Source: Acidobacterium sp.
GTDB taxonomy: Bacteria > Acidobacteriota > Terriglobia > Terriglobales > Acidobacteriaceae
DNA: 64,000 nucleotides
Direction: 5' to 3'
NCBI GenBank assembly: GCA_003131625.1
Contig: PKVY01000081.1
Location: 27,232 to 91,231, forward strand
This document shows, in pieces, positions 1,425-21,310 of the stretch; positions within the stretch are counted from its first letter, which is position 1, and the number at the start of each line of letters is the position of its first letter. The position numbers and the translations under genes were made by a program. The notes beneath the pieces are model-generated. The model saw nothing but the letters and a program-made list of their open reading frames with translations. It searched no databases and was not told the DNA's origin.

Positions 1425-2438
1425 ATGAAAGCCTGGCGCCTTCCTTCATTTGGCATTGACAAGCTGGAACTGGTGACGCTGCCGGATCCGAAGCCGCAGC
1501 GCGGCGAGGTGGTGATCAAAGTACACGCAGTGTCGTGGAACTTTCGTGACCTGATGGTGGTGCAGGGACGATACAACCCGAAGATGCATCTGCCGCGCAT
1601 CCCGTGTTCTGACGGGGCAGGCGAAGTGATGGCGATCGGCGAAGGCGTGACGCGCGTGCAGGTGGGCGATCGCGTGGCGGGCATTTTTATGCAGAACTGG
1701 ATCGACGGCGAGGCGGATGCGGCGAAGATTCGCGGAGCGCTGGGCGGCGACATCGATGGCATGCTGGCGGAATTTGTTGTGCTGCGCGAAGAAGGGGTGC
1801 TGCGTTTTCCAGAGCATTTGTCGTATGAAGAGGCGGCGACGCTGCCGTGCGCCGCGGTAACAGCGTGGAATGCGCTTTTTCATACCGGCGGAGTAACGCC
1901 GGGCGACACCGTGGTAATCCAGGGAACGGGCGGAGTGTCCACTTTTGCACTGCTGTTCGCGAAAATGCTGGGAGCGCGCGTGCTCGGTACATCGAGCAGC
2001 GACGCGAAGCTGGAGCGTGCGAAGACGCTGGGGCTCGATGATGGAGTGAACTATCGCCAGCATCCTGAATGGGATAAGTGGGTAGTAGAAAAAACGGGTG
2101 GGCGTGGCGCCGATCTTATTGTGGAAGTGGGCGGAGCGGGGACGCTGATGCAATCGTTGCGCGCGGTGCGGATCGGCGGAGCGGTTGCGCAGATTGGCGT
2201 GTTGAGCGGAAAAGGGGAGGGGGTTGAAATCTCGTTACTGTTGCACAGGCAGGTTCGTCTTCGCGGGATTTATGTAGGATCGCGGTTCGATTTTGAGAAG
2301 ATGAACCGAGCAATCGCACAGCAGAAATTGAAACCCGTGGTAGATGAGGTGTTTAGCTTCAGCGACGCGTCATCAGCGTTGCGCCGTATGGAGTCAGGGG
2401 CTCATTTTGGGAAGCTGGTTACTTCCGTGACGCACTGA
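1425..2438 (+). CDS. Zinc-independent-type medium-chain alcohol dehydrogenase
   Basis: 337-residue medium-chain dehydrogenase/reductase. The N-terminal GroES-like catalytic domain (about 1-130) carries the family segments VSWNFRDLMVVQGRY and PCSDGAGEV. The Rossmann domain (about 130-290) has the nucleotide loop QGTGGVSTFAL. The structural zinc cysteine cluster of classical ADHs is absent, which fits the MDR subfamily of NAD(P)-dependent alcohol dehydrogenases/quinone reductases. It probably reduces or oxidises a small carbonyl/alcohol in the cytoplasm; the substrate cannot be read from sequence. ATG 1425 gives the expected N-terminus (MKAWRLPSFG). It stands alone. Confidence 0.85.
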   Translation: MKAWRLPSFGIDKLELVTLPDPKPQRGEVVIKVHAVSWNFRDLMVVQGRYNPKMHLPRIPCSDGAGEVMAIGEGVTRVQVGDRVAGIFMQNWIDGEADAAKIRGALGGDIDGMLAEFVVLREEGVLRFPEHLSYEEAATLPCAAVTAWNALFHTGGVTPGDTVVIQGTGGVSTFALLFAKMLGARVLGTSSSDAKLERAKTLGLDDGVNYRQHPEWDKWVVEKTGGRGADLIVEVGGAGTLMQSLRAVRIGGAVAQIGVLSGKGEGVEISLLLHRQVRLRGIYVGSRFDFEKMNRAIAQQKLKPVVDEVFSFSDASSALRRMESGAHFGKLVTSVTH

Positions 2439-2482
2439 AAATGTTTGTTGCAATGGCGACATTTTGCCTCAAGATGCATCTT
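2438..2482. promoter_or_regulatory. Inverted repeats between dehydrogenase and zinc-ribbon gene
   Basis: AAAATGT (2438-2444) is complementary to ACATTTT (2459-2465), and a perfect 12-base palindrome AAGATGCATCTT follows at 2471-2482. They lie 70 bases before the next start codon. They could be a weak terminator arm plus an operator; there is no T-run after the first hairpin, so intrinsic termination is doubtful. Confidence 0.3.
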
Positions 2483-2550
2483 AACAAGTGCTCGCTGCAA
2501 GCGATCACAGCACGATCAGAGAGACCAGAAAGAAAGGAGCTGCTAACGCT

Positions 2551-2844
2551 ATGAACTTCCTGATGGCCTGCCTGCAATCGGTTCTCAATTTCTTCTCAAA
2601 GATTTTCTTTGGCTGCACGCATTCGAGGGTGACGCGCCCGTTCACGATCGCCGAGGAGACGTACGAGGTCTGCCTCGATTGCGGGAAACAGATTTTCTAC
2701 TCCGCGCAGGAAATGCGGCCACTGACGCCGTGGGAAATCCGGCGGATGAAGGCCGCGCGAGCGGGCGAACTGAAAGTGGTCCCTATCAACTCCGCGGTTC
2801 CGCGTCTGGTTCCGGGGGGTCAGAAGCCCAATATCGCCGCGTAA
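2551..2844 (+). CDS. Small putative zinc-ribbon protein
   Basis: 97 residues, start fixed by AAAGGAG 11 bases upstream. An N-terminal hydrophobic stretch (LMACLQSVLNFFSKIFFG) is followed by Cys22-x-His24 and, 17 residues later, Cys41-x-x-Cys44 (CLDCGKQ). Together they look like one four-ligand zinc site. The remainder is basic and ends without recognised domains. The gene is monocistronic, closed by a clear intrinsic terminator. Function is unknown; a membrane-associated zinc-ribbon protein is the most that the sequence supports. Confidence 0.65.
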   Translation: MNFLMACLQSVLNFFSKIFFGCTHSRVTRPFTIAEETYEVCLDCGKQIFYSAQEMRPLTPWEIRRMKAARAGELKVVPINSAVPRLVPGGQKPNIAA

Positions 2845-2869
2845 AAGTTTCTCCTTGTTGTTCCTCTTG

Positions 2870-2895
2870 AAGGGAGCGTTTCGGCGCTCCCTTTT
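2870..2895 (+). terminator. Intrinsic terminator
   Basis: GGGAGCG (2872-2878), a 6-base loop and CGCTCCC (2885-2891) form a perfect 7-bp stem followed directly by TTTT. It ends the zinc-ribbon gene. Confidence 0.8.
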
Positions 2896-2956
2896 CACTT
2901 TTGTGGGACAGCGGCCCGGGGGGCGAGGAGGCTAAGATAGACACTGGCTTTCCCCC

Positions 2957-5110
2957 ATGGGTCGTGTTCTGACAAGTCGGCTGCTGCTGGCGGTTCTGGC
3001 TCTCGGTGTGGCCGGGTGCGGCAGCGTCAACTATGCCGCGCAGGCGGGGGATGGCAGCTTTTCGCTGAGCGCAGCGACGCGGTCGACCGGCACGAACGGG
3101 CAAATCGCGCTGCATGCGATGCTGCCATCGGGCGATGCGGCTTCGGTGACGTGGAAGATTGCGTCGGGGACGAATGCGGCGACGCTGGGCCAGGGAAACG
3201 TCGACGCGACGGGCGTTTATACCGCGCCGGGATCGCTTTCCGCAGACGGGATTACGGTGCGGGTGGAAGCGACGCTCCGGAGCGACGCGCAGAGCACGGC
3301 CTCGCTGACGATCGCGGTACATCCTGGATTTGTGCAGCCGCTGCTGCCGCAGAATGTGGCGCTGACGGCGGGGGCGACAGCCGATGTGACGGCGCAGATT
3401 GCCGAAGTGGATGCCGGCAGCGTGAAGTGGTCGCTCGAGAGCGCGCCGAATGGCGAGCAGAATTCAACGACAGGAACGCTGGGTTCGGTGAGTGGCTCGT
3501 CGTGCCAGCGCAGCTCCGACCGCTACACCACGTGCACGGCAACGTACACGGCGCCGAGCGCGATTCCGCAGCAGGATGTGTATGTGGTGGCGGCGGTGAA
3601 TGGGAGTAAAGTGACGTCGCCGCTGCACGTGCTGCTGAACAGCCGCGGGGTGGTGAGCAATCCGATTGCGAATCAGGCGATCCAGACAGGACCGGCGATG
3701 CTGGGTGCGTCGGGCGGGAACGATGGGGATTACGACACCTGGGAGGACCGCAAAGGCGAGTCGTTTGTGGCCGATTGCTGTGGCGGCACGCTGGGCGCGC
3801 TGGTGGAAGACGGGCAGAACAACCAGTACATCCTGAGCAACAACCATGTGCTGGCGGAGTCGGATCAAGGGCACGTGGGGGACACCATCGATCAGCCGGG
3901 GATGATCGATGGCGGGTGCACGCCGCTGAGCCGGCCGGGATCGACGCTGCACCCGATTGGGACTCTGCAGTACTTCGTGCCGCTGGCTTCGCAGCAGACG
4001 AATGTGGACGCAGCGCTGGCGCTGGCTGCGCCGGGCTCGGTGGATCCATCGGGGAGCATTCTGGGGCTGGGCACGTCGGGACGCGATCAGGCGCTGAGCG
4101 GGGCTCCGCCGATGGCGGGGCATGGCGAGACGCTGACGGCAGCGAACCTGGGCATGGACGTGGCGAAGAGCGGGCGCACAACGGGGCTGACCTGCTCCAG
4201 CATTAACGCGGTTGCGCTGACGGTGAAGGTGGACTACTACAAGGATTGCGCGGAGACGCAGCCCTACACCACGAAGACATTTGAGAATCAGATTGGGATT
4301 GGCGGCACGCACTTCACCGACAGCGGCGACTCGGGCGCGCTGGTGCTGGATGCGAGCAATGCGCAGGCGGTGGGGCTGTACTTCGCCGGCGGGACCGATG
4401 GGGATGGCAACGGGTTGAGCGTGGTCAATCCCATTGGCGATGTGCTGCACGAGCTGAGCACGGAGACGGGCAGCCCACTGAGCCTGGTGGGCACGAACAC
4501 GGCCCATTCGATTGCGTGCCTGCGCTACGATCCCGCGGTGCCGACGGAGCCGCCGTACGTGGGGCCTGCGGCGCTGGATCGGGCGCAGGCGATTGCCGAG
4601 GGCGCGGCGGATACTCTGCGCGGCAATGGGGTTTTGGGAACGGCGGCGGGGCATAGTCTGGACAGCCCGGGCGATCCAGCGGTGGTGGTTTATGTCGATC
4701 ACGCGACAGCGACCGTGCCGGAGACGATTGAGGGCATGCGGACGCAGGTGATCGTGACGGATGCTGGCGCAGTGGCACGCGGGACGGCTCCGGCGATGCC
4801 TGCGCTGGAAGCGGGGCTGCATTTATCGAGCGCGGCGCTGGCCGGCGCGACGGCGGTGGAGCAAGGTGTGGCTCCGGGGCTGATGGCCGATCCGGCGGTT
4901 TTTGGCGTGGGCGTGACCGAGAGCCGGGATAATCCTGCGGAAGCGGCACTGCTGGTGCTGGTGGACATCGGGCGGAATCCGCAGTCGATGCCGATGACGA
5001 TGGGCGGGCTGCGGGTGGAGTATATGCGGCTGCATCGGTTTCACACGACGCTGTCGAAGTTTGCGACGGCACAGCGTTCAGGGTGCAGCGTTCAGCGTTC
5101 AGCGAATTAG
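2957..5110 (+). CDS. Lipoprotein with Ig-like region and trypsin-like protease domain
   Basis: 717 residues. The signal peptide ends in a lipobox (LGVAGC), so the protein is probably membrane-anchored outside the cytoplasm. Residues about 30-240 are Ser/Thr/Ala-rich, Ig/BIG2-like beta repeats. A chymotrypsin-fold domain follows, with a complete triad: His297 (SNNHVLAES), Asp351 (TNVDAALAL) and Ser459 (SGDSGALVL). After it comes a tandem duplication of about 75 residues (see findings). An endopeptidase acting in the periplasm or at the outer membrane is inferred; the substrate is unknown. The last ten codons are made from a 7-base tandem repeat. Monocistronic; convergent with the vapBC pair. 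Confidence 0.75.
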   Translation: MGRVLTSRLLLAVLALGVAGCGSVNYAAQAGDGSFSLSAATRSTGTNGQIALHAMLPSGDAASVTWKIASGTNAATLGQGNVDATGVYTAPGSLSADGITVRVEATLRSDAQSTASLTIAVHPGFVQPLLPQNVALTAGATADVTAQIAEVDAGSVKWSLESAPNGEQNSTTGTLGSVSGSSCQRSSDRYTTCTATYTAPSAIPQQDVYVVAAVNGSKVTSPLHVLLNSRGVVSNPIANQAIQTGPAMLGASGGNDGDYDTWEDRKGESFVADCCGGTLGALVEDGQNNQYILSNNHVLAESDQGHVGDTIDQPGMIDGGCTPLSRPGSTLHPIGTLQYFVPLASQQTNVDAALALAAPGSVDPSGSILGLGTSGRDQALSGAPPMAGHGETLTAANLGMDVAKSGRTTGLTCSSINAVALTVKVDYYKDCAETQPYTTKTFENQIGIGGTHFTDSGDSGALVLDASNAQAVGLYFAGGTDGDGNGLSVVNPIGDVLHELSTETGSPLSLVGTNTAHSIACLRYDPAVPTEPPYVGPAALDRAQAIAEGAADTLRGNGVLGTAAGHSLDSPGDPAVVVYVDHATATVPETIEGMRTQVIVTDAGAVARGTAPAMPALEAGLHLSSAALAGATAVEQGVAPGLMADPAVFGVGVTESRDNPAEAALLVLVDIGRNPQSMPMTMGGLRVEYMRLHRFHTTLSKFATAQRSGCSVQRSAN
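5072..5104 (+). repeat. Heptanucleotide array inside a coding 3' end (copy E)
   Basis: CAG phases recur every 7 bases from 5072 (CAGCGTT, CAGGGTG, CAGCGTT, CAGCGTT, CAGCGAA). The array forms the last codons of the protease-like lipoprotein just before its TAG. It has the same period and core as the G-triplet arrays elsewhere in the window, but with fewer G-runs. Confidence 0.75.
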
Positions 5111-5151
5111 AGTTCCGGACGCGGCGTAAAACACGGCCCGAGTAAGGGTGA

Positions 5152-5538
5152 TCAGAAGAGATGGATTGGTCCTTGGTAGCGGGCGATTGCGGGATCGACG
5201 GTGAGCAGCAGCAGCCCGTCGGCGGTGGCCTGCGCGATGAGCATGCGGTCGAAAGGGTCTTTGTGCAGAGGGGGGAGTCCGGCGACTGCGACTGCGTGCC
5301 TGCCGGTGATGGCGAGTTCGGTATAGCCGTTGTCGAGCAGGCCGCGGCGGAGGAGGGCCGGATCGGCACGAAAGTCGGTGCGGCCGAGGCTGTTCTTGAT
5401 GGCAATCTCCCACAGGCTGGCGGCGCTGAAGACGAGCTGATGCTCGGGTTCTTCGATCATCGCGCGCGCGGCAGCCGGCAGGTGGTTGGGTTCGCTCGCT
5501 CCCCAGAGGAGCAGGTGGGTATCGAGGAGCAGCCTCAT
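5152..5538 (-). CDS. vapC: VapC-type PIN-domain toxin
   Basis: 128-residue PIN ribonuclease. The four acidic active-site positions are present: Asp6 (LLLDTHLLLW), Glu44 (SLWEIAIKNS), Asp97 (DPFDRMLIAQ) and Asp115 (LTVDPAIARY). VapC toxins cut tRNA or rRNA with Mg2+ and are held inactive by the cognate antitoxin. The start ATG overlaps the antitoxin stop (ATGA), so the two are translationally coupled. The family is the LLDTHLLLW branch usually paired with Phd/YefM-type antitoxins, as here. Confidence 0.92.
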   Translation of the reverse strand: MRLLLDTHLLLWGASEPNHLPAAARAMIEEPEHQLVFSAASLWEIAIKNSLGRTDFRADPALLRRGLLDNGYTELAITGRHAVAVAGLPPLHKDPFDRMLIAQATADGLLLLTVDPAIARYQGPIHLF

Positions 5539-5789
5539 TGCCCGCCATCGAACAGCGTGGCGATTTCATCCGCGCCCAGCCGATCGAAATCCTCGGGAAC
5601 AGAGATCTGCCCGGCGAGGAACCCGGTGCGGCGGACGGCCAGCGGCAGCGGCGCATCGATGGCGGTGACCCTGACGACGGGTTTGCCGGCCTTGGCAATG
5701 ACGAAGGGCTCTCCCTGGACTGCTTCCTCGATGAGGCGGGAGAGGTGGGTCTTGGCTTCGTGGATATTGACCGTTTTGGCGGGCTTCAT
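5535..5789 (-). CDS. Phd/YefM-type antitoxin
   Basis: 84 residues. The N-terminal dimer/DNA-binding part (VNIHEAKTHLSRLIEEAVQG, then FVIAKAGKPVVRV) is the typical Phd/YefM fold; the C-terminal tail that wraps the toxin is variable. It is the first gene of the pair and probably represses its own promoter, where a perfect inverted repeat is seen 5 bases upstream of the start codon. It neutralises the downstream VapC. Confidence 0.92.
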   Translation of the reverse strand: MKPAKTVNIHEAKTHLSRLIEEAVQGEPFVIAKAGKPVVRVTAIDAPLPLAVRRTGFLAGQISVPEDFDRLGADEIATLFDGGQ

Positions 5790-5843: not shown

Positions 5844-7247
5844 TCAGCTATGCAGAGCGGCGATCGCCTCCGGAGCCGCCTTTTCGGTGCGGAATTCGCC
5901 TTCCCATTGGGCGACGACGGCGGAGGCGAGACAGTTGCCGACGACGTTGACGACGGTGCGGCCCATGTCCATGATGGCGTCGACGCCGAGGATGACGAGG
6001 ATGGGCTCGACGGGCAGCGCGAAGATGGAGGCGGTGGCGAGAATCACGACCAGGACGGAGCGGGCGACGCCGGCGACGCCTTTGCTGGTCAACATGAGGA
6101 CGCCGACCACGGTGAGCTGGCGGCCGAGGCTCATGTGGATGCCAGCAGCCTGGGCGGTGAAGATGACGGCGATGGAGCAGTAGAGCGCCGATCCCGCCGT
6201 GTTGAAGGTGTAGCCGGTGGGGATGACGAAGGCGACGATATTGCGCGGGACGCCGTAGGCTTCCATGGCCTCGATGGCCCGTGGGAGCGCGGCTTCGCTG
6301 GTGCTGGTGGCGAAGGCGATGGTGGCGGGTTCGGCGACGGCGCGGAGAAACTCACGCAGGGGCAGGCGCGCGATCAGCAGCGCGGGCAGCATGGCCACGA
6401 GCGCGAAGACGACGATCGCAATGTAGAGGGTGAGCGCAAGCTTGCCGAGGTTGAGCATGACGCCGAGTCCCGATTGCGCGACGGTGAAGGCGAGAGCGGC
6501 GGCGACTCCAACGGGCGCGTAGAGCATGACGAAGTTGGTGAAGGCGAACATCACCTCGGTGAGCGATTCGCAAAGGCGGAGCATGGGCGCGCGCTTCGTT
6601 TCGCTGACGCGGCTGAGGGCGAGTCCGAAGAAGATGGCGAAGACGGCGACCTGGAGGATTTGATTGTCGGCGACGGCGCTGGCGATGTTTTCAGGGAAAA
6701 CGTGCAGCAGGAATTGCTGCCAGGAGATGGCGGTTTGCTGCGGGAGCGCGGCCGTGGAGACCGCGGCGTGCGCGGCCATGTTGAGGCCGACACCGGCTTT
6801 CGAAATGTTGATGGCGACGAGACCGATGACCAGCGCGATGGTGGTCAGGGTTTCGAAGTAGACGAGAGATTTCAGGCCAAGCCGACCGACGGTTTTGGCG
6901 TCGGCGTGGCCGGCGATGCCGGTGACGAGGGTTCCGAAGATGAGGGGCGCGACGATGACGCGGATGAGGCGGAGGAAGATGTCGCCGAAGACGCGACCGG
7001 ACAAGGCGACATGTGGAGCGTCGACGCCGAACTCGATGCCTGCCAGCATGCCGACGAAGATCCAGCCGGTGAGGGAGCGGCGGCGCGACGCTGCCCAGGC
7101 GAGAAGGACAAGCGCGACGATGCGGACAGCGATGGCTGCGACGCGCGCAGCAGGCCAGGAATGCTGCGCTGCGGCTGCGGCGGCGTAGAGCACGAGGCCG
7201 GTGATCGCCAGCATCGAGACATTCGGCTTTTGCGCGGCCGACTTCAT
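5844..7247 (-). CDS. Dicarboxylate/amino acid:cation symporter (DctA/GltP family)
   Basis: 467-residue inner-membrane transporter of the DAACS family. It shows many hydrophobic helices and the signature elements of the transport core: re-entrant hairpin 1 as TSTSEAALP, helix 7 as PTGYTFNTAGSALY, and helix 8 as MGRTVVNVVGN. DctA-like members import C4-dicarboxylates and GltP-like ones glutamate/aspartate, driven by Na+ or H+. The Asn in VVGN is usual for DctA; the helix-7 motif is not (usual NxDGT, here NTAGS). The N-terminus is longer than average, with two extra hydrophobic segments. Monocistronic; a heptanucleotide array abuts the start codon. Confidence 0.88.
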   Translation of the reverse strand: MKSAAQKPNVSMLAITGLVLYAAAAAAQHSWPAARVAAIAVRIVALVLLAWAASRRRSLTGWIFVGMLAGIEFGVDAPHVALSGRVFGDIFLRLIRVIVAPLIFGTLVTGIAGHADAKTVGRLGLKSLVYFETLTTIALVIGLVAINISKAGVGLNMAAHAAVSTAALPQQTAISWQQFLLHVFPENIASAVADNQILQVAVFAIFFGLALSRVSETKRAPMLRLCESLTEVMFAFTNFVMLYAPVGVAAALAFTVAQSGLGVMLNLGKLALTLYIAIVVFALVAMLPALLIARLPLREFLRAVAEPATIAFATSTSEAALPRAIEAMEAYGVPRNIVAFVIPTGYTFNTAGSALYCSIAVIFTAQAAGIHMSLGRQLTVVGVLMLTSKGVAGVARSVLVVILATASIFALPVEPILVILGVDAIMDMGRTVVNVVGNCLASAVVAQWEGEFRTEKAAPEAIAALHS

Positions 7248-7284
7248 GGGAGCAGGGTACAGGGTACAGGGCGCAGGGTGCAGC
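7248..7284 (+). repeat. Heptanucleotide GGG array (copy B)
   Basis: GGG runs start at 7248, 7255, 7262, 7269 and 7276, exactly 7 bases apart (core CAGGGTA). It begins at the base next to the start codon of the minus-strand symporter, so it would lie in that gene's 5' leader (as C-runs in the mRNA). A 2-unit echo is at 7306-7317. Confidence 0.85.
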
Positions 7285-7348
7285 GAAAAGCGGCCGGGGA
7301 GTGATCAGCGTTCAGGCACCCGGCGTCGGGCTGTTTTATCCTGCTGGC

Positions 7349-7888
7349 ATGCGTAGTTATTTTGCAGTCGTGCTTTCCTGTTTGCTGATGCTGGCAGCCG
7401 CGGCGACGGCGCAGACGCTCGATCCTTTGGCGCCGAAGCCTCCGGAGAATCAGAACGGCAATGCGCTCACGAACCCGGGACTGTCGCCGGAGGTTGAGTT
7501 CCTGTACGAGCTGGAGGTGAAATTCGCCGCTGATACGGCGAAGGGCGGGGGTGCAGCCTTCAGTTCATGGTTCGCGCCCGACGCAGTGACCCTGGGCAAC
7601 GGCAAAGCGCCAGTGGTCGGCTACGATGCGATTGCCGCGGCGGCGACCTGGTCTCCGGACGCCTATCAGCTGACGTGGACGCCGGAGGGGGCGCGGATGG
7701 GTCCCGCGGGGGACATGGGCTTTACGTGGGGGCACTACCAGGGGGTGTCGAAGGACGGCCAGGGAAGCGCGGCGAAGACGACGGGCCGGTACATGACGGT
7801 GTGGAAAAAGCAACCGGATGGGTCCTGGAAGGTGGCCCTGGACGCCAGCAACGAGGGGCCTGCGGAGGACTGTTGCCGGGTAAAGTGA
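7349..7888 (+). CDS. Secreted SnoaL/DUF4440-like protein
   Basis: 179 residues. ATG 7349 gives a standard signal peptide (MRSYFAVVLSCLLMLAAAAT then AQ). The mature domain of about 120 residues (EVKFAADTAKGG, AFSSWFAPDAV, GYDAIAAAATW, GRYMTVWKKQPDGSWKVALD) has the order of the NTF2-like DUF4440/SnoaL fold, including the closing motif where a polar dosage strand ends in Trp-Lys-Val. Such domains bind small ligands or act as subunits; no enzyme activity can be assigned. Cys-Cys near the C-terminus. Monocistronic. Confidence 0.7.
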   Translation: MRSYFAVVLSCLLMLAAAATAQTLDPLAPKPPENQNGNALTNPGLSPEVEFLYELEVKFAADTAKGGGAAFSSWFAPDAVTLGNGKAPVVGYDAIAAAATWSPDAYQLTWTPEGARMGPAGDMGFTWGHYQGVSKDGQGSAAKTTGRYMTVWKKQPDGSWKVALDASNEGPAEDCCRVK

Positions 7889-8148
7889 ACGATTTCTGAG
7901 GCGAAATAGGGCGGTTATGTTACCGTAGTGCCTGAATAAGGCGCGCCATTCCGTTACTACCGGAAAGTACCGTAAGCGATACGTATAACAGGACTTGGGA
8001 TCACCCGAACGGGGCAGAGCGGGGGCGAAAATACTTTGGGACAATGCTTGTGACGCTCCGGCGTCTGGACTACGGTTGCACTTTTGCCCTGGCAACAACA
8101 TATGCCTGAAGACAGGGGTCCCGGGCTCGCCGGAGTCTGCGGAGAGGG

Positions 8149-10587
8149 ATGAGTTACCTGGCCACCAGCGCGCAGTGGAGCGAAGCCGAAAGGCTGAAAT
8201 CCCTGCTGGAATACGACATTCTCGATACGCCGGCGGACCCGGCGTTTGACGAGATAGTTCGTGTCGCGGCCCAGGCGACGGGCGCCCCTTTCGCGTATCT
8301 CGGTTTCCTCGACGCGAATCGTCTATGGTTCAAGTCGCGGTTTGGTTTCCAGGGGACGGAGATTCCCCGGCTGGCGACGGCGGACCAGTACACCATTCTT
8401 GAACCGGAGCCTTTGCTGATTGCGGACGCGGCGATGGAGCCGCGGTTTCCGGTGCGGGGCATTCCGCTGACGCGGACCGTGCATTGCCGCTCGTATCTGG
8501 CTGCGCCGCTGGTGGGTATGGAAGGCGGCATCGGCACGCTCGCGGTGCTTTCGCCGAAACCGAATCAGTTTACGGAGCAACATGCGTCGATCCTGGGCGT
8601 GCTGGCGCGCCAGGTGATGATGCGGCTGGAGTATTCGGTTCATTCGAAGGGACAGGATCACTCGCTGCGCAGCCGGCAACGGATTGAGCGGGCGCTGACC
8701 GTAGAGCGGAACTTTGTGTCGGCGGTGCTCGATACGATGAGCGCGCTGGTTCTGGTCGTGGACACGGCCGGACGCATTGTGCGGTTCAATCGCGCCTGCG
8801 AAGAAATATCGGGATATACGTTTGCGGAGCTGGCGGGGCGATCATTTCCGCAAGAGCTGTTCCTGACGGAAGAGCGGCCACAGGCGTTCGATCTGATCGA
8901 GCAGTCGCGCCGGGAGGCGCGGCGCGAACCGACGGAATTGCACTGGCTCTCGCGCGACGGACGGCGGCGGCGCATTGCGTGGAACACGACCACGCTGACC
9001 GATGGGCTCGGCGACATCAACTTCATCATCATGACGGGCGTCGACGTCACCGATCAGCGGGAGGCGACCGCGGCCCTGTATGCGAGCGAAGCGCGCTACC
9101 GGCAACTGGTGGAAAGCTCGCTGGGCATGGTGTGCACGCACGATCTGGAGGGCAGGATTCTCTCGATCAACACCAACGCGGCGGAGAGTCTGGGGTATCG
9201 CTCCGAAGAGATGGTGGGCAAGCGGATGATCGACTTCGTTCCCGAGGATCAGAAGCCGGCATTCGAGCATTATCTTGCGAGCATCGCGCAATCGGGCGAG
9301 GAGCAGGGCATGCTGAGCCTGCGGCACCGCAACGGCCAGGTGCGGTTCATTGCGTGGCGCAACCGGCTGCTCGATCTGCCCGACACGCCGCCCTTCGTGC
9401 TGGGCCACGGCATCGACGTGACGGAGAAGACGGACGCCGAGAACAAGCTGCATGCGGTGATGCGGCAGCGGGAGTCGATTCTAGAGTCGGTGGGAGACGG
9501 CATTTACGGCGTGGACATGGAGGGCCAGATCATCTTCGTGAACGAAGTGGGCGCGCGGATGATGGGATACACGCAGGAGGAGATGGAGGGCAAGGAACTG
9601 TTGCAGATGCTGGGGCACGCGCGCGCGGATGGTTCGGTGTTCCGGATCGAGGACAGCCCCATCTATGCGGCGAGCCGTTCGAGCGCGCCGATTCGCGCCC
9701 GCGACGAAGTTTTCCGGCACAAGGACGGGCATCCGGTTCCGGTGGAATACGTGGCCTGCCCGATGCTTTCGAACGGGCGCGTGACGGGCGTGGTGGTGGC
9801 GTTCCAGGACGTGACGGAGCGGCGGCGTCTGGACCGGATGAAGGACGAGTTTATTTCGACGGTGAGCCACGAACTGCGCACACCGCTGACGGCTCTGCGC
9901 GCTGCGCTGGGACTGATTGCGGGCGGGGCGCTGGAGAAGCGGCCGGAAAAGCGCGCGCAGATGATGGATGTGGCGATCGGCAACTGCGACCGGCTGGTGC
10001 GCCTGGTGAACGACATTCTGGATTTCGAGCGCATGGGCGCGGGACGGTTGCCGATGCGATTCCAGGAGGTGGAGGCCAAGGATCTGCTGCGGAGGGCGAC
10101 GGATCTGCAGCATCCGAACGCGCAGAAGGCGGGCATTGGGTTCCTGATCGACGCGGGACCGCTGACGCTTTGGGTGGACGAGGACCGGATTCTGCAGACG
10201 CTGGGCAACCTGATCAGCAATGCGATCAAGTTCTCGCCGGCGGGCAGCGAGATCACGCTGCGAGCGCGGACACAAAGTGCAACCGAGGCGATTATCTCGG
10301 TTTCGGATCGCGGCCGCGGAGTTCCTCCGGAAAAGCTGGAGATCATCTTCGAGCGCTTCCAGCAGGTGGATGCGTCGGATTCGCGCGACATGGGGGGAAC
10401 CGGGCTGGGACTGGCGATCTGCCGCAATATCGTGCGCCAGCACGGTGGGCGGATCTGGGCGGAAAGCATCGTGGGCCGGGGAAGCACGTTCTACTTCACG
10501 GTGCCCCGGACCTCCGCGCGCCAGGAGCAGGGCGAGGCTACGGCTCAGTCTTCGAGTCAGTCTCCGGTTGGGACGCGGCTGCTGTAG
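8149..10587 (+). CDS. Soluble GAF-PAS-PAS-PAS sensor histidine kinase
   Basis: 812 residues with no membrane helix, so a cytoplasmic sensor. Order: GAF-like domain (about 15-170), three PAS domains (about 190-310, 315-435, 440-560), HisKA with phospho-acceptor His574 (STVSHELRTPLTALR), and HATPase_c with N box (NLISNAIKFS), G1 (SDRGRGVPP), F box and G2 (GGTGLGLAI). No receiver domain and no adjacent response regulator, so the partner is encoded elsewhere. The 3' end overlaps the convergent XRE-cupin regulator by 50 bases. The 260 bases upstream contain two copies of TACCGTA (7921, 7968) but no promoter I can name. Confidence 0.93.
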   Translation: MSYLATSAQWSEAERLKSLLEYDILDTPADPAFDEIVRVAAQATGAPFAYLGFLDANRLWFKSRFGFQGTEIPRLATADQYTILEPEPLLIADAAMEPRFPVRGIPLTRTVHCRSYLAAPLVGMEGGIGTLAVLSPKPNQFTEQHASILGVLARQVMMRLEYSVHSKGQDHSLRSRQRIERALTVERNFVSAVLDTMSALVLVVDTAGRIVRFNRACEEISGYTFAELAGRSFPQELFLTEERPQAFDLIEQSRREARREPTELHWLSRDGRRRRIAWNTTTLTDGLGDINFIIMTGVDVTDQREATAALYASEARYRQLVESSLGMVCTHDLEGRILSINTNAAESLGYRSEEMVGKRMIDFVPEDQKPAFEHYLASIAQSGEEQGMLSLRHRNGQVRFIAWRNRLLDLPDTPPFVLGHGIDVTEKTDAENKLHAVMRQRESILESVGDGIYGVDMEGQIIFVNEVGARMMGYTQEEMEGKELLQMLGHARADGSVFRIEDSPIYAASRSSAPIRARDEVFRHKDGHPVPVEYVACPMLSNGRVTGVVVAFQDVTERRRLDRMKDEFISTVSHELRTPLTALRAALGLIAGGALEKRPEKRAQMMDVAIGNCDRLVRLVNDILDFERMGAGRLPMRFQEVEAKDLLRRATDLQHPNAQKAGIGFLIDAGPLTLWVDEDRILQTLGNLISNAIKFSPAGSEITLRARTQSATEAIISVSDRGRGVPPEKLEIIFERFQQVDASDSRDMGGTGLGLAICRNIVRQHGGRIWAESIVGRGSTFYFTVPRTSARQEQGEATAQSSSQSPVGTRLL

Positions 10588-16329: not shown

Positions 16330-16352
16330 AGGCTGTTACGATCGAATTACCA

Positions 16353-16380
16353 CAGGCAGCCCTGCGGGGCTGCCTGTTTT
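16353..16380 (+). terminator. Intrinsic terminator after tal
   Basis: CAGGCAGCCC (16353-16362), loop TGCG, GGGCTGCCTG (16367-16376), then TTTT: a perfect 10-bp stem. Confidence 0.9.
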
Positions 16381-16533
16381 GGTTTCTGAGGCTGAGCCCC
16401 TGGCGGATTCGGATCGAGTAAACGACAAAACGACGCCAGGAGCTTGACTGAAGAGTTACAGGCTTGGCATGATCGGACTTCCGGTGCGGATATCGCACCG
16501 TTTCCCAGGCTCGGATCGTCATAGGCGCATCAC

Positions 16534-18246
16534 TTGCAGAAAACGAAGTTATTTCCGTCGCCCCCATCGGCGGTTCAAGCTGCCCGCACCGTTGTTCGTC
16601 TCACCGCGGGCCGGGCGAGGACCCGGTGGGAGCTGCTGCTGGCAGTTCCGCTCCTGTTGGGGCCGCTCTCGTTTGCGCAGGATACTGGCCCCCTGGCGCC
16701 GCAGGCGCTGGCCGCGCTTCCGGACGCGCCGGTTCCCGCGGCTTCTGTGACAGAAGGGGCGAAGGCCGAGTCTACGAGCGTTGTTGCAGTGAGCGCGCCG
16801 CGCGATCATGTGTCGCCGGAAGATTGTTCGCTGGATACGACGCATTCGCGGAGATGCCGGGTTCACTGGGGCCATTTGACCCTCACGACGACGCTGTTCA
16901 ACGCTTTTGAAGACGCAGGCAATCTGTACACCGGCTACTGGTATCGCGAGGAGACAACCAAGGGTGACTGGTGGGATCGCTATATCAATTCCGCTTCGGA
17001 CTGGGTATGGAATCGATGGCCGGACTACAATCCCTTCCTTGACGATTACGTAGGGCACCCGATGATGGGCGCCATCACCAACGATCTGTGGATCCAGGAC
17101 GATCCGAAGAGTATGACGGTCGGGCCGTCGAACACATGGCCCTACTGGCGGCGGATGCTGCGCGCCGGCGCGTTTTCGACCGCATATAGTTTTTGGTGGA
17201 AGCTGGGCCCGACCGGGGAAGCGTCGATCGGGCACAACGGCGACCACGCCGAACCTTACGGAAACGGACACATCAGCAACGAAACGGGCTGGGTGGAGCT
17301 GGTGACCACGCCGGTGGGCGGAGCCCTGTGGACGATGGGCGAGGATGTGCTGGACAAGCACGTCGTCGCTCCAGTGGAAGGTGATGGGCGCAATCCTTTT
17401 GCGCTGCTGGGGCTGAGTTTTCTGGAGCCGGCGCATGCGACGGCGAACATTTTCCGCTTCCGGCCACCCTGGTACCGGGATGATCGGGTGGTCAAGGCGA
17501 AGTCGTTCTGGAGCGATCCTGTCGGCGAGAACGAGGTGCGGTTCGAGAAAGCAGAGACTGGACCGAGCGGAAGCACGAGTGGGGCTGAGGGTGAGGCGAA
17601 CACGGTGTCTTCGGTGGTCCCGGGGGTTTCCCCTGTGGTCCGGAGCGCGAGTTCGGCGGGAGAATTGCCGGTGTGGCCGCATCCAGGAGGCGAGCACGAG
17701 TTTGGAGCGTGGTGGGGACTCTCGCTGATGAGCGGGCATCTCTGGGGCTACTCCGGTGACGTGAAATATATGCCCATCGATGTGCGATACAGCTATCTGA
17801 TCAGCCCGCACGACAGCTGGACGCTGCGCTACGCTCCGGAATTGACGGCGCTGGCGATGCTGGATTGGCCGGTGCCAGGAGCTGTGCCTACCAAGAATCA
17901 ACCGTATACCCAGTACCTGCGCACGCGGGCCTATGGCAGCGGCTTTAGCCCGGTTGGATTCGAGACGGATTTTCTGCCGGCAAAACGGATCCAGCCTTTC
18001 CTGAGCACGAACGGCGGGTTCGTTTATTACGACGAGCGCGTGCTCTCCCCGCAAGGATCGCAGTGGATGTACACAATCGATTTCGGCTGCGGGCTGCATA
18101 TTTTCCGTAAGGCGCGCCAGGACTGGAGCCTTGGCTACCGGTACCAGCATCTGTCCAATGCAAACATCAGCCAGCACAATCCGGGAACGGACACAAATGT
18201 GTTCTATGTTGCGGTGTCGCGCTTCCGCAGCAAGGGATATCGCTAG
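16534..18246 (+). CDS. DUF3943-like protein fused to a PagL-like C-terminal domain
   Basis: 570 residues with a late signal peptide (RTRWELLLAVPLLLGPLSFA). The first half carries the DUF3943-type blocks: NPFLDDYVGHPMMGAITNDL, SFWWKLGPTGEASIGH, ELVTTPVGGALWTMGEDVLD. After a Ser/Gly-rich linker the last 170 residues look like an outer-membrane barrel of the lipid A deacylase family, ending with LGYRYQHLSNANISQHNPG, which contains the His-x-Ser-Asn motif of PagL. Removal of the 3-O acyl chain of lipid A is the inferred activity. TTG 16534 is the only plausible start in reach and is uncertain. Monocistronic. Confidence 0.65.
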   Translation: MQKTKLFPSPPSAVQAARTVVRLTAGRARTRWELLLAVPLLLGPLSFAQDTGPLAPQALAALPDAPVPAASVTEGAKAESTSVVAVSAPRDHVSPEDCSLDTTHSRRCRVHWGHLTLTTTLFNAFEDAGNLYTGYWYREETTKGDWWDRYINSASDWVWNRWPDYNPFLDDYVGHPMMGAITNDLWIQDDPKSMTVGPSNTWPYWRRMLRAGAFSTAYSFWWKLGPTGEASIGHNGDHAEPYGNGHISNETGWVELVTTPVGGALWTMGEDVLDKHVVAPVEGDGRNPFALLGLSFLEPAHATANIFRFRPPWYRDDRVVKAKSFWSDPVGENEVRFEKAETGPSGSTSGAEGEANTVSSVVPGVSPVVRSASSAGELPVWPHPGGEHEFGAWWGLSLMSGHLWGYSGDVKYMPIDVRYSYLISPHDSWTLRYAPELTALAMLDWPVPGAVPTKNQPYTQYLRTRAYGSGFSPVGFETDFLPAKRIQPFLSTNGGFVYYDERVLSPQGSQWMYTIDFGCGLHIFRKARQDWSLGYRYQHLSNANISQHNPGTDTNVFYVAVSRFRSKGYR

Positions 18247-18311
18247 TAATCTAACCAGACGATAAAAGCAGCGGTATCATGATAGCCGCTCTCCCGGAAT
18301 GCGAGGCTATC

Positions 18312-19160
18312 ATGTCTCTTGTCCAGCGTGCGCTGCTTTGCGCCGCGGTGCTCTTCACGACTCCGTACCTTCTTCACGCCGACAACGAATCCAAAATTGC
18401 GGGCCGCTTGCAGAATCTGCGCTCTCTTTCCGACGCGCAGAGGCCCGGGGCTACAGTTCAGTTAGCTGCCGATGTCCAAGCGTTGCCTCCCGGTCCCAAC
18501 AAGGTGAAGCTGGCCGATGACCTGGCCCATCTGGTGACGGAAGGCGACCAGGGACAGGCGACGGTTCAGGCGGTCGCCGACGCGCTGCGGCAGTCTTTGT
18601 CGGAGACGCCGGTGCCTTCGAAGAAAGGCGAGACACCGATGCCCTATATGGACCTCGCCAACCTTGTGCGCTACGAGGGCGCAGCGGAGGAACTGAACGA
18701 CCCACTGTATGCGAAAGCGCAGCAGACCCTCGTGGACGAGGAAACCGAAATTGCGAAGGCGGACTTCACGCTGAGGGATCTTCACGGAAAGAAATGGACG
18801 CTTTCCGAACTGCGCGGGAAGATCGTGATGGTGAACTTCTGGGCGACGTGGTGCGGCCCGTGCAAACTGGAGATGCCCAATCTCGACTTCTTCTATACCC
18901 GGTTTCAGTCGCAGGGCCTGGTGGTGCTGTCCATCACCAGCGAGGAAGGGTTCAAGGTTGCTTCCTACACGAGCGCATGGAATTATCATCCGCCCATCCT
19001 GATCGATGTGGGAGGGAAAGTCTTTCAGCAATTCCATATACAGGGAGTTCCGAGGACCTTTCTTTTCGATCGCGACGGGAAGCTGCTGGCGGAGGCCATC
19101 GACCAACGGACGCAACGGCAGTTTCTGGTGATGCTGTCGAAGACCGATCTGCACCCGTAG
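18312..19160 (+). CDS. TlpA-type thiol-disulfide oxidoreductase
   Basis: 282 residues. A signal peptide (MSLVQRALLCAAVLFTTPYL) exports it. An N-terminal helical region of about 110 residues precedes a thioredoxin fold with WCGPC (Cys181, Cys184) in FWATWCGPCKLEMPNL and the cis-Pro loop GVPRTFLFDRDGK. A periplasmic thiol reductant, for cytochrome c maturation or outer-membrane protein repair, is the usual role. ATG 18312 is chosen for the signal peptide and the nearby GAGG; an ATG at 18279 is in frame. Follows the PagL-like gene by 65 bases. Confidence 0.88.
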   Translation: MSLVQRALLCAAVLFTTPYLLHADNESKIAGRLQNLRSLSDAQRPGATVQLAADVQALPPGPNKVKLADDLAHLVTEGDQGQATVQAVADALRQSLSETPVPSKKGETPMPYMDLANLVRYEGAAEELNDPLYAKAQQTLVDEETEIAKADFTLRDLHGKKWTLSELRGKIVMVNFWATWCGPCKLEMPNLDFFYTRFQSQGLVVLSITSEEGFKVASYTSAWNYHPPILIDVGGKVFQQFHIQGVPRTFLFDRDGKLLAEAIDQRTQRQFLVMLSKTDLHP

Positions 19161-20533: not shown

Positions 20534-21310
20534 TTACTCGGAGTGCGGCTTGCCGAAGTGGTAGCTCAACGCCACGGTCGCGTTCATGACGTCGAGGCCG
20601 GGATTGGACGGGGTCATGAAGCCATTGGAAAAATGAAAGTCGCCCCACAGGCCGAGGCGGAGGTCGTAACGCGGCGATGCCTTCACCAAAATGCCCAAGG
20701 ACGACTGAAGAGTGAAGTTCTCATAGGTGGACGAGGGGGAGAGCGCTTTTTGATTGAAAGCGAGCATGCCTCCCTTGAAGAGGAGAAACGGTTTCAGGCT
20801 CTTGTTGCTGCGCCATTCCATGCGCAAGCCGATGGGAGAAATGCCGACACCGTAGAGGTTTTTGCGGCCGGGACCAATCGTATCGCCCCACAGATCGGTT
20901 TTTGCAGGTTCATTGAGGATCATGATCGGCAGAATTTCTGCGACGTAGTCCATCTGCGCGCCCAGGAAGTAGTCCCAGGAATGGCGGTCGTACTCGATGC
21001 CGCCGGTGTAGAGATGGCTGCTGCCGCCGCCGGCAAAGATGTAGTAATGGCCAAAGGAGTCGAGACCTTCGAAGGCAATTTCGCGTTCCGGCGGCTGTTT
21101 GACCGGGGCCGGTTGGGTTTCGACGAGGGAGCCGGTGGAAATGGCGGTTGTCGCCGGTGAGGGAGGAGGAGCCGTTTCCTGCGCGCGAGCCCATGGCAAG
21201 CCGGTCACGGAGAGAGCGGCGAGCAGGATGGTGCATTTCAGGAAAGCGCCGCAGGGGCGCCGGTTCCGGAGCGCGCCACCCACCGACCGAGCAAGCCAGT
21301 TCGTCAGCAA
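20534..21310 (-). CDS. PagL-like acyloxyacyl hydrolase (lipid A deacylase)
   Basis: 258 residues. A signal peptide (about 24-44, ILLAALSVTGLPWARA) is followed by a Pro-rich linker and an 8-strand outer-membrane barrel. Near the C-terminus, WGDFHFSNGFMTPSNPGLD holds the His-x-Ser-Asn catalytic motif and NPG turn of the PagL family, and the protein ends with aromatic-rich ALSYHFGKP. PagL removes a 3-O-linked acyl chain from lipid A at the outer membrane. It is the second such domain within 5 kb. The start is TTG 21310; no stronger in-frame alternative is seen. Confidence 0.72.
   Translation of the reverse strand: MLTNWLARSVGGALRNRRPCGAFLKCTILLAALSVTGLPWARAQETAPPPSPATTAISTGSLVETQPAPVKQPPEREIAFEGLDSFGHYYIFAGGGSSHLYTGGIEYDRHSWDYFLGAQMDYVAEILPIMILNEPAKTDLWGDTIGPGRKNLYGVGISPIGLRMEWRSNKSLKPFLLFKGGMLAFNQKALSPSSTYENFTLQSSLGILVKASPRYDLRLGLWGDFHFSNGFMTPSNPGLDVMNATVALSYHFGKPHSE

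Follow-up and report, generated by a model that had tools for sequence, protein, structure and literature searches.

Two described systems lie closest to the locus analysed here. One is PagL (PF09411), the lipid A 3-O-deacylase, whose active-site His and Ser were reportedly described by Geurtsen in 2005. In the solved PagL of P. aeruginosa (2erv) we take the His and Ser of the H-x-S-N motif to be the catalytic residues, and Glu to be the third, acidic residue of the active site. The other is DUF3943 (PF13084), which the main text of Burroughs et al. (eLife 2025, PMC12419801) places in the lipocone superfamily under the name YfiM-Griddle. As described there, lipocones have a four-helix core with an ancestral His, Glu and Asp on helices 2, 3 and 4, and are predicted to remove or swap phosphate-linked lipid head groups. 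Griddle members have a C-terminal two-helix hairpin with an hhsP pattern in the turn and are usually, indeed nearly obligately, fused or linked with outer-membrane barrels; head-group chemistry at the outer membrane is ascribed to them in that main text from context. We found no tested substrate for DUF3943/Griddle lipocones in those parts of the literature that were covered. A Griddle-like domain joined to an outer-membrane barrel is a known type of architecture. PagL as the barrel did not come up in the open-access papers listed by our searches, none of which, by title and opening of the abstract, dealt with a PagL-DUF3943 fusion, and the name PagL is absent from the main text of PMC12419801. 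An analogy, and an analogy only, is offered by MapA, a Moraxella acid phosphatase-autotransporter. In the portion of its report consulted (PMC5424252), MapA likewise combines a phosphoester enzyme domain with an outer-membrane barrel, but the phosphatase domain is a different one and the barrel is a 12-strand autotransporter barrel.

The window, a stretch of 64,000 nucleotides, lies on one contig of a draft genome of 5.39 Mb. It carries on the plus strand, at 16534-18246, a gene with a TTG start for a protein of 570 amino acids, in which translation, Pfam and modelling point to a DUF3943-like, putatively lipocone-type domain joined to a PagL-type outer-membrane barrel. All features of this gene given here lie on the same strand. 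A probable signal peptide, read by eye in the translation, covers residues of about 29-48 (16618-16677), with cleavage near SFA-QD. Then come an N-terminal helical domain at residues of about 93-325 (16810-17508), which profile comparison, modelling and conservation suggest to be a remote relative of DUF3943/YfiM-Griddle lipocones; a faster-evolving linker at about 326-384 (17509-17685), modelled with low confidence (pLDDT below 50 at 328-372); and a PagL-type beta-barrel at about 385-570 (17686-18243). Upstream, also on the plus strand, pattern matching placed a terminator-like hairpin at 16352-16377, between a transaldolase gene and the fusion gene, and a weak promoter-like site at 16444-16473; the region as a whole gave seven such hairpins where 4.2 were expected, and two such sites where 1.0 was expected. 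An AhpC/TSA-type thioredoxin-fold protein, recognised by Pfam and in translation, is encoded on the plus strand 32 bases 3' of the fusion gene (18279-19160). The same gene order is common to three genus-mates (L078, L082 and L083), and in one of them, L082, the AhpC/TSA-type gene is split over two frames. A search of a plasmid collection gave no match.

A preliminary description of this DNA had assigned the C-terminus to the PagL type on a His-x-Ser-Asn signature, an assignment that was borne out by profile and by structure. Pfam PagL covers residues 470-561 with an E-value of 1.6e-12 and 48.2 bits against a cut-off of 23, so the HxSN of the fusion is not a chance motif. The active-site stretch, H539-x-S541-N542 ... 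N549-P-G-x-D553, lies at 18148-18192, and residues 539-551 read HLSNANISQHNPG. The fusion protein alone found no match in a sequence search of the PDB, and NCBIfam matched neither it nor the second PagL-like protein described below. With a profile of 66 sequences the best solved chain was 2erv, at an E-value of 0.026 that is weak by sequence alone. The alignment set H539-x-S541-N542, N549 and D553 opposite H-x-S-N, N and E of 2erv, where the motif facing H539 and S541 is HYSN; the His-Ser pair is thus in register with that of the solved enzyme, as the first description had implied. The AlphaFold model of the whole fusion protein had a pLDDT of 79, mostly above 90 in the barrel, and a pTM of 0.55, at which the mutual placing of the two domains is not given. 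The predicted barrel comprises nine strand segments, or eight strands if 429-433 and 436-446 are counted as one; in this model H539 and S541 end strand 7 and D553 begins strand 8. Compared with solved structures, the modelled barrel had 2erv as its top match in Foldseek (E 1.9e-6), and VIA aligned 146 residues of the two at Z 16.4 and an rmsd of 2.1 A, with other barrels at Z 14.9 or less. Barrel fold, profile match, His-x-Ser-Asn and the register of the second Asn and the acid are features shared with PagL, whereas the fusion differs from 2erv, a chain of 150 residues, in its large N-terminal domain and in having Asp for Glu as the third residue. Across 16 fusion sequences the catalytic His was kept in 15, and Ser541, Asn542, Asn549 and Asp553 were each kept in all 16; the exception, L092, has Asn in place of the His. 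His, Ser and both Asn were present in 14 of 14 PagL-only sequences, and the Asp in 12 of them. Judged by this conservation, the barrel probably functions as a PagL-type lipid A 3-O-deacylase.

A different C-terminal partner was observed in nine relatives (L065, L066, L067, L068, L016, L017, L073, L075 and L076), where the N-terminal domain is followed by a region of 204-228 residues that lacks HxSN. The region looked barrel-like by eye, and a Pfam barrel match, below the cut-off, was obtained for L068 only among five that were scanned. Its comparison with the PagL profile was not significant (P 0.099), and the N-domain proteins that carry it occupy their own part of the N-domain tree. Proteins of this kind, such as L065 and L068 from the same bacterial family, share with the fusion the N-terminal domain and a C-terminal region of barrel-like length, but neither the HxSN motif, nor a match to PagL, nor the place in the tree. 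They lend some support, as does the single fusion with Asn at the catalytic His, to the idea that the barrel of the window protein has the PagL fold without lipid A deacylation and is mainly an outer-membrane anchor for the N-terminal domain, as the unrelated C-terminal regions elsewhere may be. We consider this improbable: the catalytic residues are kept almost without exception in the fusions and recur in most of the PagL-only sequences, and the barrel evolves under a dN/dS of only 0.07-0.14. A probable deacylase therefore remains our preferred reading of the barrel.

The N-terminal half had been likened to DUF3943 in the preliminary description. What survived is a remote homology; the Pfam DUF3943 model itself found no match in the fusion protein, in its N-terminal domain alone or in the whole genome, and Pfam overall matched nothing in the N-terminal domain of the window protein. 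However, when 42 N-domain sequences (6 fusions and 36 unfused) were examined, 34 matched Pfam DUF3943 at an E-value of 0.1 or less, the best at 1.3e-8. Three relatives (L127, L128 and L129, which are the same genes as L018, L034 and L020, respectively) passed the Pfam cut-off, but two of the three did so only once adjoining sequence was included. With these three excluded, a profile-profile comparison of 55 N-domain with 23 DUF3943 sequences gave P 1.1e-9 and a score of 63.8, and the 16 fusion sequences alone gave P 7e-5 against the DUF3943 profile. In the controls, the best of 40 column shuffles reached P 0.028 (score 19.7), the reversed profile 0.13 and PAP2 0.5. On these sequence comparisons the N-terminal domain is DUF3943-like by remote homology and is not a Pfam member.

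A model of the N-terminal domain (pLDDT 89, pTM 0.88) consists of four long helices (112-133, 168-189, 202-224 and 254-281) and a C-terminal hairpin (288-295/299-307) with Pro299 at the turn. Twelve columns were invariant in 42 sequences, and the conserved residues are D164, H175, Y204, E229, T259-P260, E270, D271, D274, P299, N305 and R315. H175, which sits in helix 2 of the model, was kept together with E270, D274, N305 and R315 in 52 of 52 sequences; E229, just past helix 3, was kept in 50 of the 52 (16/16 fusions and 34/36 unfused). The domain resembles DUF3943/YfiM-Griddle (PF13084), as the latter is presented in the main text of PMC12419801, in remote profile homology, modelled four long helices, a modelled C-terminal hairpin with Pro at the turn, a conserved helix-2 His and linkage to an outer-membrane barrel. 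It differs in going unmatched by the Pfam model, in residues of its own (E270-D271-x-x-D274 and N305/R315), in having Glu as the helix-4 acid, and in that its partner barrel is of a known enzyme type. The hairpin turn reads F-L-E-P, and the 'small' position of the lipocone hhsP pattern is not small here. In helix 4 the N-terminal domain of the window protein has the motif G-W-V-E255-L-V-T-T-P. Position 255, the equivalent of the lipocone helix-4 Asp, is Glu in 13 fusions and Asp, Ser and Thr in one each (n=16), against Asp in 35 of 36 unfused sequences. The lipocone helix-3 Glu has no clear counterpart: position 221 in helix 3 is Trp in the window protein; the fusions have 10 Glu, 4 Trp, 1 Gln and 1 Ala there, compared with Gln in 32 of 36 unfused sequences. 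Since the helix-4 acid is Glu and position 221 is Trp, the chemistry of the N-terminal domain may be changed or weakened. Profile comparisons of the N-terminal domain with DUF2279 (P 0.079) and VanZ (P 0.32) were not significant, and those of DUF3943 with DUF2279 (P 0.024) and VanZ (P 0.0068) were weak, the two families being represented by 6 and 10 sequences; the best-scoring stretch between the N-terminal domain and DUF2279 falls on the helix-4 motif. Because of these weak or non-significant values the lipocone step rests on PMC12419801, and with that support we infer that the N-terminal domain is of the lipocone type.

The relaxation of the helix-4 acid and of the helix-3 position in the fusions, relative to their unfused relatives, leaves some weight for docking without catalysis, in which the N-terminal domain would serve as a lipid-binding or docking module, feeding lipid A to an active PagL barrel or orienting it there. 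In line with this, the fold of the N-domain model matched no solved enzyme: Foldseek returned no PDB match at an E-value of 0.001 or less, and the best Z in VIA was only 4.7. We nevertheless regard such a role as rather unlikely, for the residues kept in 52/52 and 50/52 sequences go beyond what a loosely binding module would require, and purifying selection on the N-terminal domain is about as strong as on the barrel. The same selection, the 12 invariant columns and the view of the family as head-group enzymes in the main text of PMC12419801 leave the 'sensing or docking' role proposed in the preliminary description without support. A catalytic N-terminal domain is accordingly the reading we prefer.

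The fusion was then placed among related genomes. Of 297 genomes surveyed across the phylum, 61 gave a match of some kind, and full-length matches occurred only in the window genome and in one other genome of the same bacterial family (G171). Among 398 genomes of that family we found at least 16 intact single-frame fusions (window included) and at least two interrupted ones, in six genera; these counts are lower bounds because no more than three candidates were scored per genome. An artefact or misassembly was considered and rejected, because intact fusions are present in 16 genomes. Of the 12 genomes listed for the genus of the window, 5 had the fusion, interrupted in one of them. L078 (G503, 2344-4054) is a broken fusion with its N-domain and barrel encoded in different, overlapping frames, which may be a sequencing slip or real, and L097 (G470, 7147-8979) has an in-frame TAG within the N-domain and is either a pseudogene or a sequence error.

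In a tree of 58 N-domain sequences, the 17 fusion sequences formed one clade with support of 100/99, adjoined by a clade of unfused genes from G550, G491, G535, G605, G517 and others; with L141-L143 added, the branch nearest the fusion clade was no longer resolved. A tree of 32 barrel sequences likewise united 18 fusion sequences (98/96), with the PagL genes of G535, G491 and G550 as neighbours. Both trees agree with a single joining event, and by its single clade in six genera the fusion is old. Both parts thus occur unfused in the same three genomes, G535, G491 and G550. In G550 the unfused pair is 18 bases apart, with the PagL gene first and the N-domain gene second; in G491 and G535 the two unfused genes are widely separated or on different contigs. 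In G307, from a more distant lineage, the N-domain gene precedes the PagL gene, and the stop of the former and the start of the latter overlap as ATGA. Compared with three genus-mates, the N-terminal domain had a dN/dS of 0.09-0.14 and the barrel one of 0.07-0.14; the values were 0.11-0.44 in the linker and 0.46-0.59 at the N-terminal end, with dS above 1 in several cells of the comparison. By these ratios both domains are under purifying selection and are being kept.

Gene neighbours common to different genera were absent from the 45 largest ORF clusters (19 loci), the fusion gene and overlapping frames aside. Ten neighbouring proteins scanned with Pfam included none of the lipid A pathway; two had no Pfam match and the others were assorted (NAD(P)H-hydrate repair, glycosyl hydrolases, a helicase and others). 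The lack of a cross-genus neighbour in these clusters, and the unlinked state of close relatives of both parts in G491 and G535, would suit a neutral fusion, in which two domains acting on unrelated substrates were joined for co-localisation only. This we hold to be very improbable, given that adjacent unfused pairs exist in two further genomes with opposite gene orders and that one old fusion has been retained in six genera; a functional link between the two domains is the reading carried forward here.

Several other arrangements of these genes were seen. In L142 (2581-4879) an unfused N-domain gene is convergent with a PagL-like gene about 260 bases away. This pair was not counted as evidence of linkage: its nearest N-domain relative, L141, has no such pair in the sequence examined, and the L142 PagL-like protein lacks the third-position acid by eye. 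L064 (G315, 3754-5659) has a divergently oriented, back-to-back pair of unfused N-domain genes. Glycosyl hydrolase family 92 genes adjoin the PagL genes of both G535 and G491 (L079 and L099).

The preliminary description also noted a separate PagL-like protein about 2.3 kb from the fusion gene and suggested, speculatively, that the two paralogues might act on different acyl chains. We confirmed the protein at 20534-21310; its location on the minus strand had not been stated. By Pfam and translation this gene encodes a second, divergent PagL-like protein of 258 amino acids that contains HFSNGFMTPSNPGLD and has no N-domain. It scored just below the Pfam PagL cut-off of 23 (20.9 bits, E 4.2e-4), retains the H-x-S-N ... 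N-P-G-x-D pattern and is 32% identical to the fusion barrel over about 100 residues. L082 has a second PagL-like gene at the same place downstream of its fusion (81% identity); L083 lacks one in the 3.9 kb beyond its fusion, and a search of the 3.0 kb beyond the fusion in L140 gave none. The second gene is not a conserved partner of the fusion. Elsewhere in the window genome a third PagL match lies above the cut-off on another contig, and there is a fourth, weak one. The third protein, L098 (contig 108 of G000, 8716-10020), has the motif HISS and Asn at the acid position and may be inactive.

Taken as a whole, the product of the fusion gene would be an exported two-domain outer-membrane enzyme that couples 3-O-deacylation with a periplasmic head-group reaction, a reading to which we give a probability of about 0.5. 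The two activities, the topology, what the N-terminal domain acts on and the coupling are what we infer from the comparisons above. The genome encodes LpxC, a protein of the lipid A pathway (E 3.6e-95), and lipid A is therefore expected in this cell. The barrel, whose His-Ser-acid site would lie at the outer rim, would cut lipid A of the outer leaflet. In an even-stranded barrel the N-terminus faces the periplasm, and the N-terminal domain should therefore face the inner leaflet; it would lie on the periplasmic side, tethered by a flexible linker of about 55 residues. There it would most likely act on a phosphate-linked lipid head group in, or reaching, the inner leaflet, either that of lipid A in transit or that of a glycerophospholipid, and deacylation and head-group change would be coupled at one spot in the outer membrane. 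In its specific form, an enzyme with two active sites in which PagL trims the 3-O chain in the outer leaflet and, on the periplasmic side, the lipocone-type domain removes or swaps a head group (lipid A phosphate or phospholipid), the proposal is a tentative one, with the odds somewhat against it.

If the reading is true, a single protein would set both the charge and the shape of outer-membrane lipids, and lipid A would be the first concrete substrate hint for the DUF3943/Griddle family. A DUF3943 relative is here fused to a barrel of a type whose substrate, lipid A, is known, and tight unfused pairs occur in other members of the bacterial family, which makes a lipid A-directed function directly testable.
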